A DNA stretch of 64,000 bases. Origin: Pseudofrankia saprophytica (lineage in GTDB: Bacteria > Actinomycetota > Actinomycetes > Frankiales > Frankiaceae). Shown here piece by piece: positions 37,016 through 44,840 of this stretch. A model generated the notes under the pieces. The model was not told where the DNA came from. It saw only the letters and a list, made by a program, of their open reading frames with translations, and ran no database searches. Within the stretch, counting starts at the first letter, position 1. Each line of letters begins with the position of its first letter. The stretch lies in the NCBI RefSeq assembly GCF_000235425.2, contig NZ_KI912266.1, forward strand, positions 1,745,686-1,809,685, given 5' to 3'. The position numbers were made by a program, and so were the translations under genes.

Positions 37016-39163
37016 TCAGGTCGCCGGTTCGGCGGCGCGGGCCGGGGCGGCCGAACCGAGGTCCGTGGCGGACAGGCGGCGGTAGAGGGGGCAGGTCTCC
37101 CGCAGCTCCTCGTGGGTGCCGGTCGCCAGCACCCGGCCCTCGTCGAGCACGATGATCCGGTCCGCGGCCCGCACGGTGGACATCCGGTGCGCGATCACCA
37201 GCAGGGCGTGCCGCGTGGCGATGTCATGCATGACCTGGGTCAGGGCGCGCTCGTTGACGCTGTCCATCTGCGACGTCGGCTCGTCGAGCAGCAGCACCGC
37301 CGGCCGCGCGAGCATCGCCCGCGCGATCGCCACCCGCTGGCGTTCCCCACCGGACAGCAGCACCCCGTGATCGCCCACGTCGGTCCACACGCCGTGTGAC
37401 ATCCGCGTGACCAGGTCGCCCAGACGCGCGGTCTCGACGGCTTCGTCGATCTCGGCCTCGGTGGCGTCCGGGGCGGCATAGGTGATGTTGTCGCGCAGCG
37501 AGCCCTGCAACACCGGCGCGTTCTGCTCGACGAGGTTCACCCAGCCGCGCGCCGCGTCCCGCGACATCGCCCGCACGTCGACGCCGCGCAACAGGATCTC
37601 GCCGCGGTCGGCGTCGTAGAACCGTTCCAGCAGCTCGAACGTCGTCGACTTGCCCGCGCCGGACGGCCCGACCAGCGCGACGTGTCCGCGCGACGGGATC
37701 GTGAATGAGACATCGCGCAGCACTGGCCGGTCCGGCGTGTAACCGAACCACACGTCGCGGAACTCGACGGCCGGCGCTTCGGCGTGGCCCTCCGCCTGCT
37801 CGGCGTCGGGTGTGCTCGCCGGCGTCTCCGGATCCGTGACCCGCGCCGTCGCGGGTGTCTCGACCGCCGGGATGACGCGGACCAGCGGCCTGGTCGCCTC
37901 GTCGGCAAGGCCGGCGTCGAGGTCGGCGCCGCGGTCGGTGTCGAGGGCGGTATCGAGGTCGGCCTCACACGGCAGGTCGAAGACGGCGTCGACGCGGTCC
38001 AGCGCGCCCATCCCGCGCTGCATGATCCCGGAGGCCTCGATCAGCTGCGAGAGCGGCACGACCAGGTAGGTCGCATAGAGCAGGAACGCGACCAGCGAGC
38101 CCAACGACGTCACGCCGTGCGCGACGAGCACGCCGCCGACCAGCAGGACGACGAGCACCGATCCCTGCACGGCCAGCTCCATCGCCGGCGCGATGACGGA
38201 GTTCAGCCGCGCCATTCGCACCCCGAGCCGGTAGGCGTCGCGCGCGTGCACGGCGATCCGCTCGGCCTCGCGCTCCTCGGCACGGCTCGCCCGGACGGTG
38301 CGGATCGCGGACAGCGAGCGTTCCAGGTCGGCGGTCATCCGCCCGACGCTCGCCTGGCCCTCCTCCGAGGTTCCCCGGATCCGGCGCAGGGCCGACAGCA
38401 CGCCGACGCTCGCGACCAGCACGGCGACGACGACCAGCAGGAAGAGCCGGACGTCGATGTAGATCATCAGCGCGATCGCGCCGGCGGCGCCGATCAGGCT
38501 GGTCAGGAACGCGGCGAAGCTGTAGGCGACGGCCTCTCGGACGACCACCGTGTCGGTGTTCGCCCGGGAGATGAGATCGCCCATCCTTCGCTCGTCGTAG
38601 ACGCTGACCCGCAGCCGCAGCAGGTGGCCGACCAGCCGGGTGCGCAGGCCGAGGATGATGCCCTGGCCGGTGCGCTCCAGCAGGTAGTGGCCAAGCGTGT
38701 CGACGAAGGCCTGGCCGACGAACAGCCCCAGCAGGGTGCACAGCAACCAGGCGGAGATCCCGCCGTGCTGGGCGCCGTCGATCACCCGCTTGACCAGCAG
38801 CGGCTGGACGACCCCGAACAGCGTGCCGAGGGCGGTGAGGGCGACGCCGATCATGACGGTCCGGCTGTGCCCGCGCATCAGCTGCCACAGCCGCCCGAGC
38901 CCGAGGCCGCCCGGCCGCCGGCCGCCGGTACCGGGCGGCGGCGGTCCTGGCGGTCCCAGCGGTCCTGGCGGTCCCAGCGATCCTGGCGGCCCGAGCGGTC
39001 CCGCGGGCCCCAGTGGTCCTGGAGGCCCCAGCGGCCCCGGGGGTCTCGGGGGTCTCGGTGAGCCCTGCGGTCCAGGCGGTCCAAACAGGTCCGGCGATCC
39101 TGGCGGTCCCGGCGGCTCGGGCGTGCCGCCCGGTCGAGGCCGCCCCCACACCATGCCGGTCAT
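37016..39163 (-). CDS. Lasso-peptide ABC exporter (D protein) with collagen-like N-terminus
   Basis: Fused permease-ATPase of 715 aa that probably exports the lasso peptide. Residues 12-80 are an unusual collagen-like stretch of Gly-Pro-Pro and Gly-Pro-Leu triplets before the first membrane helix. Then comes a six-helix ABC_membrane domain (about 95-390) and an ATPase domain with Walker [10 protein letters not shown], signature [16 protein letters not shown], Walker [14 protein letters not shown] and the His in [12 protein letters not shown] variable acidic linker (about 400-470) joins the two. ATG 39163 overlaps the B2 stop (ATGA), so it is the last gene of the lasso operon. Confidence 0.88.
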
Positions 39164-39774
39164 CGCGTGGCCGCCGGGAGGTCGCCGGCGGACGGTCCCG
39201 CCGCTGATCCGGTCGGTGTCGCCGGCGCGTCCGTAGCCGGCCTGGCCGTGCTCGCGGTGGGAACGGCGGCCGGCGAGGCCGGCCTGCTGGTCACCGTCGT
39301 CACCCTGGCCGCCGACCGCGCCGTTCGGCGCGGCTCCACCGCCAGCAGTGGGCGGAAGTAGCCCGCGGGCTCGTCCTCGCCCACCATCAGCCCGTCCGCC
39401 TCGACCCAGGCATGCGCGGCGAACGGCGCGATGGTGCGCACGCCCACGCACCACGTTGGCCACGTGCCTGACATCCGGCACAGCAGCGCCGTCGCCACCG
39501 ACCGGGGGACGCAGCCGCGGGACCCGCGACAGACCAGGCTGACGGTGGTCACGTCGTCCCTGGCCATCTGAGCTCGGCGCCGGCTGGCCGCCTCGGCGCC
39601 GTGGCTCGCCGCGGAGAGGAAGGCGCGGATCCTGGCCGGCGGCTGGGTGGCGAGTGCCCGGGCGGCCGCGACCGCGAGGTGCGCGCGCAGGCGGCGAGGC
39701 AGCGGTGGCGGTGGCGGCGGTCGTCGGCGCGCTGACATCGGTATCGACATCGGTGTCGGCATCGGCACTGTCAT
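39160..39774 (-). CDS. Lasso-peptide leader peptidase B2 (McjB transglutaminase-like)
   Basis: Cleaves the leader from the lasso precursor. The 204-aa product has a Pro-rich N-terminus and the McjB/B2 core with the catalytic Cys in [16 protein letters not shown] (Cys 88) and the His in [11 protein letters not shown] (His 121), with acidic partners just after. The Gly-Cys-x-x-x-Ser and HAWVE patterns are diagnostic of the family. The C-terminal 50 residues are Ala/Thr-rich. Its start overlaps the B1 stop and its stop overlaps the exporter start, both by ATGA, so all three are translationally coupled. Confidence 0.88.
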
Positions 39775-40250
39775 CGACCTCCCTCGCGGCGGTCGTCGCG
39801 CCGGTCGATCGGCCGCCGGTCGTCCAGCTGCTGGTTGCCCCGCGGGCCGCCGTTTCGTCTGCTGTGCCGGCCGGCTGGGGCCTCGCCTGGACGACGGCGG
39901 AACGGCAGTCGGACCCCTCGTGGGGCGCTGGCCCGCCGGCTGGCCCGTCGAACGGCCTCCTGGCCGGTGACCGGCTCGGCAGCCGACGCGGAGTCGGTCA
40001 GCAGGCCCGCCGAGCACAGTTGCTCGACCAGCCGGTCGACGTCGGCGCGTGCTGTGTCCGGCTCGACGTCGAAGTGGTCGAGCAGGGCACGCGTGGCGCT
40101 CGGCCGGTCTCCGCCGTCGAGCAGCACGCGCAGGATGAGAGTGGCCGTAGGGTTCAGCGTCCAGTACCGGCCGGAACGCTGATCCAACAGCGCCGTCCCG
40201 TAGTCGGTGTCGGTCGAGACGACCGACCGGCTCAACGTCAACATGTCCAC
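39771..40250 (-). CDS. Lasso-peptide RRE protein B1 (PqqD-like)
   Basis: RiPP recognition element that binds the precursor leader and presents it to B2. Residues 1-95 of 159 are PqqD-like: [45 protein letters not shown] and the final helix [16 protein letters not shown]. The remaining 65 residues are an Arg/Gly-rich extension not found in typical B1 proteins (about 80-90 aa). They may be disordered or a product of reading past the old stop. GTG 40250 follows GAAGGAG by seven bases. It lies between the cyclase and B2. Confidence 0.88.
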
Positions 40251-40287
40251 TCCAGCGCTCCTTCCCCACCGATGGGCAGTCCGACGG

Positions 40288-42387
40288 CTACGGGATGTCC
40301 CAGGCGCGTAACCAGACCTCGGCGGCGGCGGTCTGCTGCAGCGCCAGGTGCGGCAGGTCGGGCGCCGGGGTGTATCGGCAGGCCCGCAGCAGCGCCTCCT
40401 CGTCCACGAGCCCGAGCGCGGCCAGCCGCGACCCGGTGAACAGGGCGCGCAGGGCGTCCTGGTTGGTGCGCAGCCCCGCCTCCTCCTCGACCGAGCCTTC
40501 CGCCTTCGTCTGCCGCCGCAGACAGTCCGCCGGCACGTGGAAGCGCATCGCCGCCTTCAGGAGCGGCTTGTACTCCCAGGGCGTGCATCGTTCGGCCGTC
40601 CGCACGGCGAGCGCCGCCTCGACCACCCGGTCGTCGTAGAACGGTGTGGTCAGCGGTGGTCCGGTAGGGGCGGCGAGCTGCGCGAAGCCACGTGCCACGG
40701 CCGCGCCGGCGCGGATCGCGAACAGATCGGCGTGCCTGTCCCGGGTGGGACCGAGCGGCTCGGCCTCCTCGACCGCTTCGGTGAGCGCGGCGCGCAGCAG
40801 CTCCACGGCCCTGGGGGTAAGCCAGGCCGGAATCCGCGGCGGAATCGACCAGTCGAGCTCGGCGACCGGCCGCGGCGACAGGCGCCGAAGACGCCGGCGG
40901 GGATGGGCGCGGGCGCGGCGGCGGTCCGGGCGGGACGCGGGGGCGAGCAGGTCGGCGAGCCAGGTCCGGTAGGAACGCGGGCGCAGCGTCCAGACGCTGG
41001 CGGCGAGTGGCCAGCGGCCCTGCGCGCGCAGGGCGCGCAGCCGCGCGTACGCGGCCAGTGGGTGGCCGAGAGCGAGGCCGGCCAGGCAGTTCGGCGATCC
41101 CTGCGCCACCTCGTCGCCGCCGAGGCCGCACAGGTGCAGCCTGGGTCGGTGGCGGCCGGCGAGGCGGAGCCCGGCGAGCAGCTTCGCGCGGTCGATCACC
41201 CCGATGAACGGGCGGTCGAGCGGCTCGCCGGCCAGGCCGATCCCGTCGTAGACCAGCGGGACGCGCTCGCGGGGGAGCAGCTCGAAGGCGCCTGGCGAGC
41301 CGTCGGCGGCGCCGGGCAACGCCGCGCGCGCGAGGGCGGCCCAGGCGGCGTCCTCGTCCGCCGGGTCACGTCCCACCCCGGTGTAGGGGACGACCGTCGC
41401 CGCCCCGGCGGCGGCGAGGAAACACAGGGCGGTGGAGTCCAGCCCGCCGGACAGGTCGGCGGTGACGGTGCCGCCAGCCGCCGTACGGAAACCCACGGCC
41501 TCGACCAGGGCACGGCGCAGCGCCGCCGCGCCCACGCGGCCGTCGAGCTCCGGTTTCGGCGCGTGCCACCAGCGCCGATGGGTCGCGGCCGGCCCGGCGG
41601 TGCCCGGCGGGTCGACGCGTAGCCAGTGGTCGGGCGGGACGGCGGTCAGGCCCAGCCACAGCGGCCGGTCGTCGAGCGGGTGCGGGGCGACCGGATCGAC
41701 CAGGCAGAGCGCGAGCGCGGTGAGATCGAGATCAGGGCGATCCCCACTGAGGGCCATGACGACGTCCGCGCGGTCTCCCGCGACGACCGCGCCGTCGAGA
41801 CGGCTGCCGTCGAGACGGTTTCCGCCGGGGCAGCCTGGGACGGGGGAGGCGCTCAGCCCGGCATGGAAGACGCGGCGCAGGCCGGAGGCCGTGCCCTGGA
41901 CCCGGCCGTGGCCGTCGATCTCCGCGACCAGGTGAAAACTGCCGGGCAGCTCGTTCGCCAGCTGGTCGAGGTCGGCGACGTCCCTGACGCGCGCGAGCCG
42001 GTCCGCGAGCTCACCGGGGCCGATCGGAACGTCGCCGATCAGTGCGAGCCGCGACCGGCCGACGGCCGCGTGCACGATGCCAGCAGCGGTGCTGGCGGCG
42101 GCGCCGGTGCGAGCAGCGGTGACACTGCCGGCGCGGGTGCCAGCAGCGGTGCCGGTGCCGGTGGCCGCGGTGGCGCTGTCGGCCGTGGTGGTCGCGCTGG
42201 CGGCCCATCGGCCGATCAGCCAGGGTCGGCCGGAGCCACGTCGCACTGCCGCGACGGTGTCGTCCGCGGCCAGCACGGCGGCGCCGAGGGCGCCGCCGGC
42301 GGGCGTGTCCGGAAGGACGGCGAACCACGGCGCGCCCGGCGCGAGCACCCGAGGCGTCCGCGGCATCGCGCGGGTCAGAGTCGTCAT
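40288..42387 (-). CDS. Lasso-peptide macrolactam synthetase (C protein, asparagine synthase-like)
   Basis: Adenylates the side-chain carboxylate of the core acceptor (here predicted Asp8) and closes the ring on the N-terminal amine. The 699-aa product has a degenerate glutaminase-like N-terminal half and a synthetase half with the PP-loop SGGLDST at residues 313-319. LHLCGLGGDEVAQGSPN and PLLKAAMRFHVP follow later. An Ala/Thr/Gly-rich insert at residues 63-103 looks like a slippage expansion. It is the first gene after the precursor, separated by a terminator hairpin. Identification is firm from family and cluster context. Confidence 0.92.
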   Translation of the reverse strand: MTTLTRAMPRTPRVLAPGAPWFAVLPDTPAGGALGAAVLAADDTVAAVRRGSGRPWLIGRWAASATTTADSATAATGTGTAAGTRAGSVTAARTGAAASTAAGIVHAAVGRSRLALIGDVPIGPGELADRLARVRDVADLDQLANELPGSFHLVAEIDGHGRVQGTASGLRRVFHAGLSASPVPGCPGGNRLDGSRLDGAVVAGDRADVVMALSGDRPDLDLTALALCLVDPVAPHPLDDRPLWLGLTAVPPDHWLRVDPPGTAGPAATHRRWWHAPKPELDGRVGAAALRRALVEAVGFRTAAGGTVTADLSGGLDSTALCFLAAAGAATVVPYTGVGRDPADEDAAWAALARAALPGAADGSPGAFELLPRERVPLVYDGIGLAGEPLDRPFIGVIDRAKLLAGLRLAGRHRPRLHLCGLGGDEVAQGSPNCLAGLALGHPLAAYARLRALRAQGRWPLAASVWTLRPRSYRTWLADLLAPASRPDRRRARAHPRRRLRRLSPRPVAELDWSIPPRIPAWLTPRAVELLRAALTEAVEEAEPLGPTRDRHADLFAIRAGAAVARGFAQLAAPTGPPLTTPFYDDRVVEAALAVRTAERCTPWEYKPLLKAAMRFHVPADCLRRQTKAEGSVEEEAGLRTNQDALRALFTGSRLAALGLVDEEALLRACRYTPAPDLPHLALQQTAAAEVWLRAWDIP

Positions 42388-42626
42388 CTGCTCGTCAGCC
42401 GATCCTTTCCGGGCCAGGTGCCTAGAGGGCCGGAGGCTGTTGTCCCCGGGTCGCTAACAGCTCGTACTCCTGTCCGTCCTCTTCTTCGCGTTCTTGGTGC
42501 CAACTCCTTCTTTCCCCTTAGTTCAACGGAGAGCTCGCGTGGCCCGCTGGAATCTTCCGTTCCATGGAGGAAGGGGCCTTCGGGCCCTGAGGACGAATCC
42601 TGGTTTCGGTGGAATCGGCGTGAAAA

Positions 42627-42665
42627 GAACTGGCGGGCCGGCCGCGATGGCCGGCCCGCCAGTTC
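42627..42665 (-). terminator. Intrinsic terminator/attenuator between lasso precursor and cyclase
   Basis: A perfect 17-bp stem (GAACTGGCGGGCCGGCC pairs with GGCCGGCCCGCCAGTTC) has a 5-nt loop and is followed on the minus strand by TTTT. Partial termination here would give excess precursor transcript over the enzymes, a usual arrangement in RiPP clusters. Confidence 0.85.
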
Positions 42666-42756
42666 GTGGCAGGTTCCGTGGTGTGTCAGGTGTCAGGTGT
42701 CAGGCGCCAGATGCCCGATGCCAGGGTTCAGGCGTCGATGGCGTCGACGAGGTCCG

Positions 42757-42942
42757 TCACCAGCCGCCTCCGCCTCCGCCGATGATGATCACACCGCCGC
42801 CTCCACCGCCGCCGGGGCCGCGGGGGTAGCCACCCCAGAAGCTGCGCCAAAGCCAGTCACGACCCCAGCCAAACCGGCCACCGGTCACCTCGGCGAACGA
42901 GCCGGCACCGTCCAGTTCGGGCATCTCGTAACGAGCCTTCAT
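42757..42942 (-). CDS. Lasso-peptide precursor with unusually long Gly-rich core
   Basis: The 61-aa peptide is directly upstream of the cyclase. Its leader, MKARYEMPELDGAGSFAEVT plus Gly, carries the actinobacterial YxxPxLxxxGxFxxxT recognition pattern (Tyr5, Pro8, Leu10, Gly14, Phe16, Thr20). Thr20 sits at -2, so the core should begin at Gly22. Core residues 1-8 are GRFGWGRD, giving Gly1-Asp8 ring closure. The rest runs WLWRSFWGGYPRGP, then GGGGGGGVIIIGGGGGGW to the stop. A 40-residue core with such a tail is far longer than usual (about 15-25). GGGAG lies nine bases before ATG 42942. A longer in-frame reading from 43077 lacks leader features. Confidence 0.85.
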   Translation of the reverse strand: MKARYEMPELDGAGSFAEVTGGRFGWGRDWLWRSFWGGYPRGPGGGGGGGVIIIGGGGGGW

Positions 42943-43077
42943 AGGGCAAAACTCCCATCGGTCGCTGTCGGGGCCCATCGGGCGCATGTCGTCCGGGCTG
43001 TACCCAGTGGTGTCCGGGCCGCGCCGGTGGCATGGCCGCGGTGGGCGGCCAAAGCCTGGTCGGTGCTTCGTCGACAT

Positions 43078-43111
43078 GTTCGTGAGCCGTGAGCCGCTTG
43101 TTCGTGAGTCG
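43078..43111 (-). promoter_or_regulatory. Direct repeats spaced 22 bp, possible SARP site
   Basis: GTTCGTGAGCCG (43078) and GTTCGTGAGTCG (43100) repeat with exactly 22-bp spacing, with a third CGTGAG between them at 43088. SARP regulators bind direct repeats spaced by multiples of 11 bp, and a SARP gene is adjacent. The site lies about 135 bp upstream of the lasso precursor. The rest of the 514-bp gap 42943-43456 shows no gene. Confidence 0.45.
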
Positions 43112-43456
43112 CATATTCGGGGCCGCCGGGCGGGTTCACCGGAGCGGTGGGCCTGCGCCCGCTGGCTCGAAGGGCCGTTCGCCCGGGCCGTTCGCCAGAA
43201 CGCCGGTCACTGAACCGGCGGCGACGGTCCGGCTCGGCGTGGGCGTCGATGCCCGCCGCGTCCGCCGCGCCCTGGCCCCGATGTCGGCGAGTGGGCTTTC
43301 CGCTCGCCTCTCCGGCAGCCCCGGGGCATCAGCGGCGCTCGCCGTGCCCTTCCTGCGCCCTTGCCTCCAGAATCTCTCGTGAGTTCCGCGTCCAGATCGC
43401 CACGTCGGCGGCCTAGCTAGGCACTGCCCAGCATCGGTTCAGCCCCGGTTCATCGC

Positions 43457-44437
43457 TCACCGTGGCGATCCGCGGCGGTGCCGCCTGGCCGGCGGCGGGC
43501 CGGCGTGGGCGGGCCGCGCGTCGGCGTGGGCGGGCCGCGGGCCGGACAGCTCCGTGGCGGCCGGCCCGCCGGTGCCGCGCAGGATGCGCTGGTGCAGGGC
43601 ACGCAGGTCCTCGCCCGGCTCGATGCCGAGCCGCTCGGTGAGGGTCCGGTAGACCGCCTGGTAGGCGCGCAACGCCTCGGCCCGCCGGCCGTCCTGGTCG
43701 AGCGCGACCAGGAGCTGGCCCCACAGCCGCTCCCTGGTCGGGTGCTCGATGGTCAGCGCGCGCAGCGCCGGCAGCACCAGTCCGTGTTGGCCGAGCCGCA
43801 GGCGGGCGTCGGCCAGGTTCTCCCAGGCGTTCCAGCGCAGCTCCTCGAGCCGGGCGGTCTCGGCGACCGCGAGGTCGGCGGGCAGGTCGTCATACGGCCG
43901 GCCACGCCAGAGCTTCAGCGCCTGCTCGAGCAGCCGGACGGCCCGGGCCGGATCTCCTTCGGCGAGGGCATCGTCGCCAGCACGGGCCCCCGCGTCGAAC
44001 AGGTCGACGTCCAGCTCGCCAGGTGCCAGCCGGATGGCGTACTCGCCGTCCCGGCTGGCTATGCGGCCGGGCCTGTGCGCCGCGGTCGGCGGATCGTGAC
44101 CCGCCGACGTGCTCGCCGTCGGCGGCGGTGAGGGCAACGCATGGCGCAGCTCGGAGACGTACGTCTTGATGTTGCCGAGCGCGGAGCGTGGGGGGTCGTC
44201 CTCCCACAGCGCCACGCCGATCTGCTCGGTGCCCACCCAGGAGCCCGCGTGCAACAGGAGCAGGGACAACAGGCGACGTCTCTTGCGCTGGCCGATGAAC
44301 ACGGGCGTTCCGTCGGCCGCCGAGACCTCCAGCGGCCCCAGGGCGCCGAACCGGGCCACGTCCAGACCCACCTCCGCGCCGCCGTCATCGCGATGATCGC
44401 CGGCGATGACAGCGGCTGCGGTCGCGGCTGTATGCAT
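43457..44437 (-). CDS. SARP-family transcriptional regulator
   Basis: The 326-aa Streptomyces-antibiotic-regulatory-type protein has an OmpR-like winged helix at about residues 25-110 (FGALGPLEV ... GQRKRRRLLSLLLLHAGSWVGTEQIGVALWEDDPP). A bacterial transcriptional activation domain follows, with YAIRLAPGELDVDLFD, LWRGRPYDDLPAD and ALRAYQAVYRTLTERLGIEPGEDLRALHQRIL. ATG 44437 follows GGGGGACAG; GTG 44488 is an alternative. It lies upstream of and on the same strand as the lasso genes, so it is the likely cluster activator. The C-terminal 35 residues are Ala/Pro/Arg-rich. The 400-bp gap to the next gene (44438-44840) shows no coding sequence. Confidence 0.85.
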   Translation of the reverse strand: MHTAATAAAVIAGDHRDDGGAEVGLDVARFGALGPLEVSAADGTPVFIGQRKRRRLLSLLLLHAGSWVGTEQIGVALWEDDPPRSALGNIKTYVSELRHALPSPPPTASTSAGHDPPTAAHRPGRIASRDGEYAIRLAPGELDVDLFDAGARAGDDALAEGDPARAVRLLEQALKLWRGRPYDDLPADLAVAETARLEELRWNAWENLADARLRLGQHGLVLPALRALTIEHPTRERLWGQLLVALDQDGRRAEALRAYQAVYRTLTERLGIEPGEDLRALHQRILRGTGGPAATELSGPRPAHADARPAHAGPPPARRHRRGSPR

Positions 44438-44840
44438 CGACGCTGTCCCCCAACCCGCACCGATGATGGCGCGCACACGACTGGTCACGCACTGTGGCCA
44501 TGTTGCGCTGTCTACCCGCTCCTATCTCCGCCAGACGGCCGCCTCGGCTCGAAACGACCATCCCCCGCAGAGGGTGACCAAGTGGTCCCGGTAACAGGGT
44601 GGGTGACACCGGACAGGTCCGGGCACATCGACTGCCAGGCGCCCGAGCCGTCAGAGGTTGCATGCTGGTGGGTGAGCGGCGGTTCGCTAGGCGGGCACCG
44701 CGCGGGGCGGGTCGCCGGTGGGCGGAGTTCGCCCCGCTCCGCCCCACTAGGCCCCGTTCCGCCCCGCGCCGTCAGGCGCCTCGGCGGGTGGTGACAGGTG
44801 GCGGCGGGCCATGACGGTAACGGCGGGTGGTGGAGGCAAG

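Follow-up and report, generated by a model that had tools for sequence, protein, structure and literature searches.

Organisation of the lasso peptide locus

A lasso peptide locus of Pseudofrankia saprophytica was analysed with a focus on the long Gly-rich tail of its predicted product. The window is the whole 64,000-nt stretch of contig NZ_KI912266.1 that was studied and belongs to a genome of 9.98 Mb in two contigs (G000). Six genes are encoded on the minus strand, in transcription order a SARP regulator, the precursor, the cyclase, B1, B2 and an ABC exporter (Table 1), with no additional gene between them, a result that does not cover peptidases among the genes on either side. A first-pass annotation had proposed a complete cluster in canonical order with ATGA overlaps, and the genes, their families and the overlaps (B1-B2 at 39774-39771, B2-exporter at 39163-39160) were all found. 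Judged by sequence, the lasso cluster is confirmed as real and complete.

Table 1 Features of the lasso peptide locus and of related loci (RRE, leader-binding protein; TMD, transmembrane domain; NBD, nucleotide-binding domain)
Feature	Position	Strand	Remarks
SARP-type regulator	43457..44488	(-)	ATG at 44437, upstream GTG at 44488; BTAD 6.2e-43
Lasso precursor, 61 aa	42757..42942	(-)	leader residues 1-21, core 22-61
Predicted 8-residue ring GRFGWGRD (Gly1-Asp8)	42856..42879	(-)	Thr(-2) rule
Gly-rich tail of 26 aa with 16 Gly, from behind Phe14 to the C-terminal GGGVIIIGGGGGGW	42760..42837	(-)	
17-bp perfect hairpin then UUUU, between precursor and cyclase	42627..42665	(-)	
Lasso cyclase, asparagine-synthetase-like, 699 aa	40288..42387	(-)	PP-loop SGGLDS
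B1, PqqD-like leader-binding protein (RRE)	39771..40250	(-)	NF033530 lasso_PqqD_Strm; PF05402
B2, transglutaminase-like leader protease	39160..39774	(-)	Cys in RGCVPRS, His in HAW
ABC exporter (TMD + NBD), Gly/Pro-rich N-terminal extension	37016..39163	(-)	PF00664, PF00005
Cyclase-free lasso loci	L089, L090, L091-L096, L062, L063		
Stand-alone lasso-leader peptides	G000:C1:1841016-1841183 and 1841515-1841673		L156
VioD-like flavin monooxygenase	L156:6657-7979		downstream of Gly/Trp-rich peptide genes

The precursor carries the YxxPxLxxxGxF...T leader and scores above the cut-off of the NCBIfam model lasso_leader_L3 (NF033521; 3.4e-05, 23.7 bits, cut-off 19), as expected from the earlier description of a 61-aa lasso precursor. 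Thr at leader position -2 is used to place the start of lasso cores. Placed in this way, the core GRFGWGRDWLWRSFWGGYPRGPGGGGGGGVIIIGGGGGGW comprises 40 aa and begins with Gly, and its sole acid, Asp8, falls within the range of positions 7-9. The ring start GRFGWGRD, three Trp and a terminal Trp had been noted before and are present, with W9, W11 and W15 following the ring and W40 at the end. Ring Gly and Asp are invariant in 12/12 aligned precursors, all selected as matches to the window's precursor. The window core has no Cys, which places it outside the disulfide lasso classes I, III and IV; Cys is present in some Frankia tails.

B1 (NF033530, 1e-30) and B2 (NF033537, lasso_biosyn_B2, 5.9e-32; scored on the longer open reading frame (ORF) 39160-40269) are over their cut-offs, and for the exporter domains the longer ORF 37016-39481 was likewise used. 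The cyclase exceeds the cut-off of Pfam Asn_synthase (PF00733) and also matches specific NCBIfam cyclase models, all below cut-off. In a comparison of 30 loci, a SARP match is found in all but one (G007), which is a 3.3-kb contig. The hairpin region between precursor and cyclase folds at -45.2 kcal/mol over 101 nt (z -7.3), while a stricter terminator scan returned nothing at this hairpin. It is likely to act as an attenuator giving more precursor than enzyme mRNA.

The putative N-terminal extension of the exporter (window 38900-39163, minus strand) is collagen-like and Gly/Pro-rich. Gly/Pro-rich stretches 5' of the exporter match also occur in the other Pseudofrankia and in genus g6, and not clearly in genus g7 or Frankia. 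A second, distinct lasso-like B2 adjoining an Asn-synthetase-like gene is encoded elsewhere in the same genome (G000:C2:758291-760584, in part L067).

Gly-rich tails in Pseudofrankia and Frankia

A precursor match at E<=0.1 is found in 20/35 Frankiaceae genomes, the weakest matches probably being due to chance. In Pseudofrankia, 6/8 genomes including the window's own have a match. All five complete precursors (G000, G001, G002, G004, G006) share the ring and loop GR[WF]GWGRDWLWRSF and a Gly-rich tail, in which a Gly run is followed by [VA]III and another Gly run. The sixth (G007) ends at a contig edge, exactly where the Gly/Trp part begins. Among the 13 Frankia (g2) genomes, Asp8 is kept in seven precursors, six of which have a Gly-rich tail. 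These six have rings and loops like GRWGWGHDYFYRRF (in G014, GGWGWGHDYYYRRF) and end with GGFVAGGF[FI][FYV]. Core length is 34-44 residues in Pseudofrankia, compared with 41-48 for the six tailed Frankia precursors, and the tail after Phe14 measures 20-34 residues across relatives. All 11 tailed precursors adjoin a cyclase with an intact SGGLDS; that of G013 is cut by the contig end with the loop visible.

The Gly-rich tail had been taken as genuine by the first-pass annotation, and orthologues in two genera bear this out. The suggested comparison with orthologous clusters shows tails kept in Pseudofrankia and in six Frankia, with G010 lacking one. G010 is also the only intact precursor ending before the tail, the kind of homologue that had been named as speaking against it, and it stands beside a cyclase with SGGLSS instead of SGGLDS.

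At the codon level, the Gly residues of the tail are encoded by a mixture of GGC, GGT, GGA and GGG. Between G000 and G001, the segment VIIIGGGGGGW has five identical, six synonymous and no replacement codons. In Frankia, GGFVAGGF is invariant in 6/6 tails, with third-base variation in three of the four Gly codons it contains. These patterns, although based on small counts, make slippage or loss of a stop codon an unlikely origin.

No relative was found in the viral contigs searched. A contig scan with one conserved stretch matched 41 stretches, including seven relatives, all from Frankia or Pseudofrankia. Five genomes outside Frankiaceae match alignment A1; the lasso-like precursors at their loci are of other types and lack such tails, except for a short Gly run at L070.

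The Asp of the SGGxDS loop has a role in the cyclase. Of 21 cyclases, not counting a partial, divergent match in G033, the loop reads SGGLDS in 17, SGGLSS in G010, SGGLAS in G017 and G019, and PGGLAS in G008. As judged by eye, G008, G011, G017, G018 and G019 have a degenerate precursor or none, and G012 has lost Asp8 while keeping GGGGFAAGGFFF. The loop is intact and the precursor is not in G011, G012 and G018, so decay need not begin with the cyclase. Only a leaderless remnant, GGGGVIIIGGGGGGW, is left in G005.

In the sister genus g7 (L062, L063, L064, L065), a Tyr/Arg/Gly-rich precursor is located at the orthologous position. A cyclase accompanies Asp9 in G031 and Gly9 in G030, whereas G034 has Asn9 and no cyclase. 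G032, also without cyclase, has an Asp run at core positions 5-7, or 6-8 with a core start shifted forward by one residue, which could provide a ring acid. Ring acid and cyclase are each missing in 2/4 g7 genomes (G030 and G034; G032 and G034), and the patterns of G030 and G032 indicate that the two losses are not strictly coupled.

Cyclase loss and stand-alone leader peptides

Across the 35 Frankiaceae genomes, a match to the window cyclase at E<=1e-20 is found in 22 and a lasso B2 over cut-off in 31. No cyclase was found in ten of these 31 (G003, G005, G024-G029, G032, G034), all of which contain the SARP-B1-B2 block. The exporter is present at the cyclase-free loci as well, except for G028, where the contig ends after B2. 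Asn_synthase-family genes occur elsewhere in nine of the ten cyclase-free genomes, always on another contig than the locus; these distant genes were sorted only in part. In G026, one such gene accompanies a second lasso-like B2.

In a tree of B1, B2 and exporter with 28 rows (all genomes but G007, G013, G021-G023, G028 and G033), the presence of the cyclase requires five changes, all forced by well-supported branches. The cyclase was lost separately in G003, G005, G032 and G034, giving a total of at least four losses, a count that sets aside g6, where the root side is undefined, and takes regain as unlikely. For B1, B2 and exporter, the ratio of non-synonymous to synonymous substitution rates (dN/dS) ranges over 0-0.49 among six chosen cyclase-free pairs and over 0.10-0.37 among nine chosen cyclase-bearing pairs. 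The three genes are under purifying selection with and without cyclase, perhaps a little looser without it. The Cys and His motifs of B2 are kept in 28/28 loci checked.

The leader model matches at E<=0.1 in 32/35 Frankiaceae genomes, and the three genomes without a match (G021-G023) also lack B2. Many matches are stand-alone ORFs. In the window genome, MKATYRAPALQDVGSFRERTHGFGLFGFGFGGWGWGHGWGWGWGGGWGHGGGWGGWC is encoded approximately 31 kb beyond the window end and is adjoined by a second copy. A shorter true precursor elsewhere in the cluster had been considered a possible objection to the 61-aa precursor; the leader model matches only three places in this genome, and the other two lie more than 50 kb away and have acid-free cores. 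A profile of 15 stand-alone peptides matches 25/393 genomes of the class, 24 of them among the 35 Frankiaceae, many of which supplied profile sequences. G335, a candidate member outside Frankiaceae, was rejected upon reading its sequence.

Stand-alone peptides have Gly/Trp-rich cores, and a genome encodes up to three of them. The sequences were read in 23 of the 24 genomes (all but G018), yielding 30 distinct peptides, a few of which end at contig edges. No core Asp or Glu is present in 28 of them, and the other two have one or two acids far from positions 7-9. Without an acid at 7-9, the usual lasso ring could not form. Several of these knot-free peptides begin with a hydrophobic patch and a Gly pattern (RHGFIIIGGGGGWGW, RAGVIIVGGGGGGWGG), and some share the hydrophobic patch, Gly run and Trp of the window tail. 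Eight cyclase-free genomes (G003, G005 and six g6) hold stand-alone peptides; in the other two, G032 and G034, a leader peptide is located at the cluster itself.

A stand-alone peptide was seen in 18/20 loci fetched, followed in 12 of the 18 by a same-strand ORF of a flavoprotein family. The nearest solved relatives of this protein are VioD tryptophan hydroxylases (1.3e-42). Its best NCBIfam model is salicylyl-CoA 5-hydroxylase and its second VioD, both far below cut-off. It is possible that the VioD-like protein is a tryptophan-modifying enzyme of ribosomally synthesised and post-translationally modified peptides (RiPPs). A literature search, with most subscription papers outside its scope, returned no report on Trp-rich lasso-related or VioD-linked RiPPs that names the Gly/Trp-rich peptides.

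Role of the tail and comparison with known lasso peptides

The window probably encodes a working lasso cluster, the Gly-rich tail of which would stay on the secreted peptide as its interaction part with the ring as a cap. The sequences show gene content and order, orthology, the conservation of the tail and the synonymous drift of its codons, and from there we infer the cleavage site, ring closure, threading and plugs. B1 would bind the YxxPxL..G.F...T leader, and cleavage by B2 would fall behind the Gly following Thr(-2). Gly1 and Asp8 would then be joined by the cyclase, the ring closing around the chain just past Trp9-Leu10-Trp11 with Arg12, Phe14 and Trp15 as likely plugs, and the ABC exporter would secrete the product. 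Behind Phe14 lies a real Gly-rich module under selection, with a hydrophobic patch and a length of 26 residues in the window and 20-34 residues in relatives. The conserved C-terminal part of the tail and the existence of knot-free relatives favour a functional tail and hint that the tail, not the knot alone, has a job. That it is kept on the secreted peptide has slightly better than even chances in our estimate. Its role in self-assembly or in attachment to the envelope or membrane, with the ring as a protease-proof cap, is a more tentative suggestion.

Several observations weigh against a retained, functional tail. Tail length and residues vary, as would be expected for a flexible or later-trimmed end. 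Comparison of the last ten Frankia codons over 15 pairs gives 104 identical and 32 synonymous cases and 14 replacements, all 14 falling in the last two residues, and G000/G001 differ from G002/G004/G006 by two replacements in seven codons around III. The likeness of VIIIGGGGGGW to FIIIGGGGGWGW is a low-complexity pattern and not proof of common descent. In g7, a clear ring acid and a cyclase occur together only in G031, and the Tyr/Arg/Gly tail of its precursor contains no Gly runs. The core of G010 (GRWGWGRDYSWRRFA) has only 15 residues and is followed by an immediate stop overlapping the likely cyclase start. With the ATP-binding loop of the neighbouring cyclase altered, this precursor counts only weakly against the tail. 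In engineered lassos, extra tail residues usually lower the yield, with astexin-1, pandonodin and others as exceptions, according to the accessible part of a 2026 review (PMC13352647).

Alternatively, the tail may be removed after maturation to leave an active lasso of 15-18 residues (GRFGWGRDWLWRSFWGG-like), the Gly-rich segment serving as a follower that aids export or prevents activity of the peptide before it leaves the cell. We consider this rather unlikely. It is consistent with the variable tail length, with the G010 precursor ending right behind the same ring and loop at the usual lasso size, and with known lassos shortened by host carboxypeptidases, as described in the same part of the review (PMC13352647). 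However, with SGGLSS in its cyclase, the short G010 core may never be cyclised, and no further gene is seen between the six genes of the block, peptidases in the flanking genes being outside the annotation. The invariance of GGFVAGGF would also be surprising in a segment that is thrown away, unless this block serves as a recognition signal.

Decay of the cluster, as in several relatives, so that nothing knotted is made today, is improbable. The missing cyclase in 10/31 B2-bearing genomes, the altered PP-loop in 4/21 cyclases and a precursor that is, by eye, degenerate, Asp8-less or gone in 6/13 Frankia genomes make it conceivable for the family, but every part in the window is open and motif-complete, and cyclase dN/dS against G001 is 0.37. 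Least probable is a neutral origin of the tail by GGN-repeat slippage or a lost stop in GC-rich DNA, for which the first Gly run of 5 to 10 residues among orthologues would speak, and a frameshift or lost-stop origin was rejected given the orthologues in two genera, the mixed Gly codons, ATC ATC ATC kept in 5/5 complete Pseudofrankia precursors and the purely synonymous drift of VIIIGGGGGGW.

Leader, processing and export genes and the Gly-rich patch segment occur with and without the ring, which suggests that the window core consists of a ring and a separately secretable module. Co-occurrence, leader similarity and selection lead us to infer that B1, B2 and exporter act on the stand-alone peptides. 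The Frankiaceae lasso machinery may even be a general secretion route for Gly/Trp-rich modules, the knot being an optional cap and the window precursor a ring-module chimera, although this idea is speculative. The cyclase would have been repeatedly lost or altered in its loop, and selection on B1, B2 and exporter would come from linear substrates, most of them encoded at other places and often next to the VioD-like flavin oxygenase, which may hydroxylate or cross-link their tryptophans. If so, the linear Gly/Trp-rich peptides would form a RiPP class so far undescribed. Repeated cyclase loss with retention of the other genes provides a direct, testable case for lasso machinery serving unknotted peptides, and points to a Gly/Trp-rich peptide group paired with a tryptophan-hydroxylase-like enzyme.

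Among other lasso systems, the L071 core GFIGWGKDIFGHYGG from outside Frankiaceae is presumably an anantin-type class II lasso (Gly1-Asp8 ring, GWGxD). The window ring shares the pattern G..GWG.D, whereas the L071 core has 15 residues and no Gly-rich tail. Poly-Gly stretches also occur naturally in microcin B17, an azole RiPP, which is made by other enzymes and has no lasso ring. Lasso-like precursors of family f19 (SSDQFFWFTSKPGGGGGGGIS) resemble the window precursor in their lasso-type leader and C-terminal Gly run, but have another core and a shorter tail. The earlier claim that a Gly/Ile/Trp tail is undescribed was thus too strong with regard to short Gly runs, while the Frankiaceae tail itself is real. 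At L133-L155 (mostly f19, a family outside Frankiaceae), lasso-like precursors adjoin in pairs, one type ending with PGGGGGGGIS, the longest seen.

The literature search described above, which also covered Gly-rich or long lasso tails and Frankia lasso peptides, found no paper on Gly-rich lasso tails and none naming the present peptides. Lassopeptide clusters are listed in two genome papers on Frankia, in their accessible parts without description of the peptides (PMC7532629, PMC11323853). Described tails had been assumed to reach about 30 residues, which is too generous: the longest characterised one given in the accessible part of the 2026 review is that of pandonodin, with 18 residues in a total of 33 aa (PMC13352647). 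Pandonodin (class IV) has a long tail beyond the plug, as predicted for the window peptide, and a tail-tail disulfide according to the same source, whereas the window core has 26 Gly-rich residues with a hydrophobic patch and no Cys. If the tail is retained, the peptides would form a naturally occurring lasso family whose tails reach almost double the length of the longest one characterised. Two genera of actinobacteria, plant symbionts and soil bacteria, maintain this family, which would offer a ready test of what a lasso tail is for.

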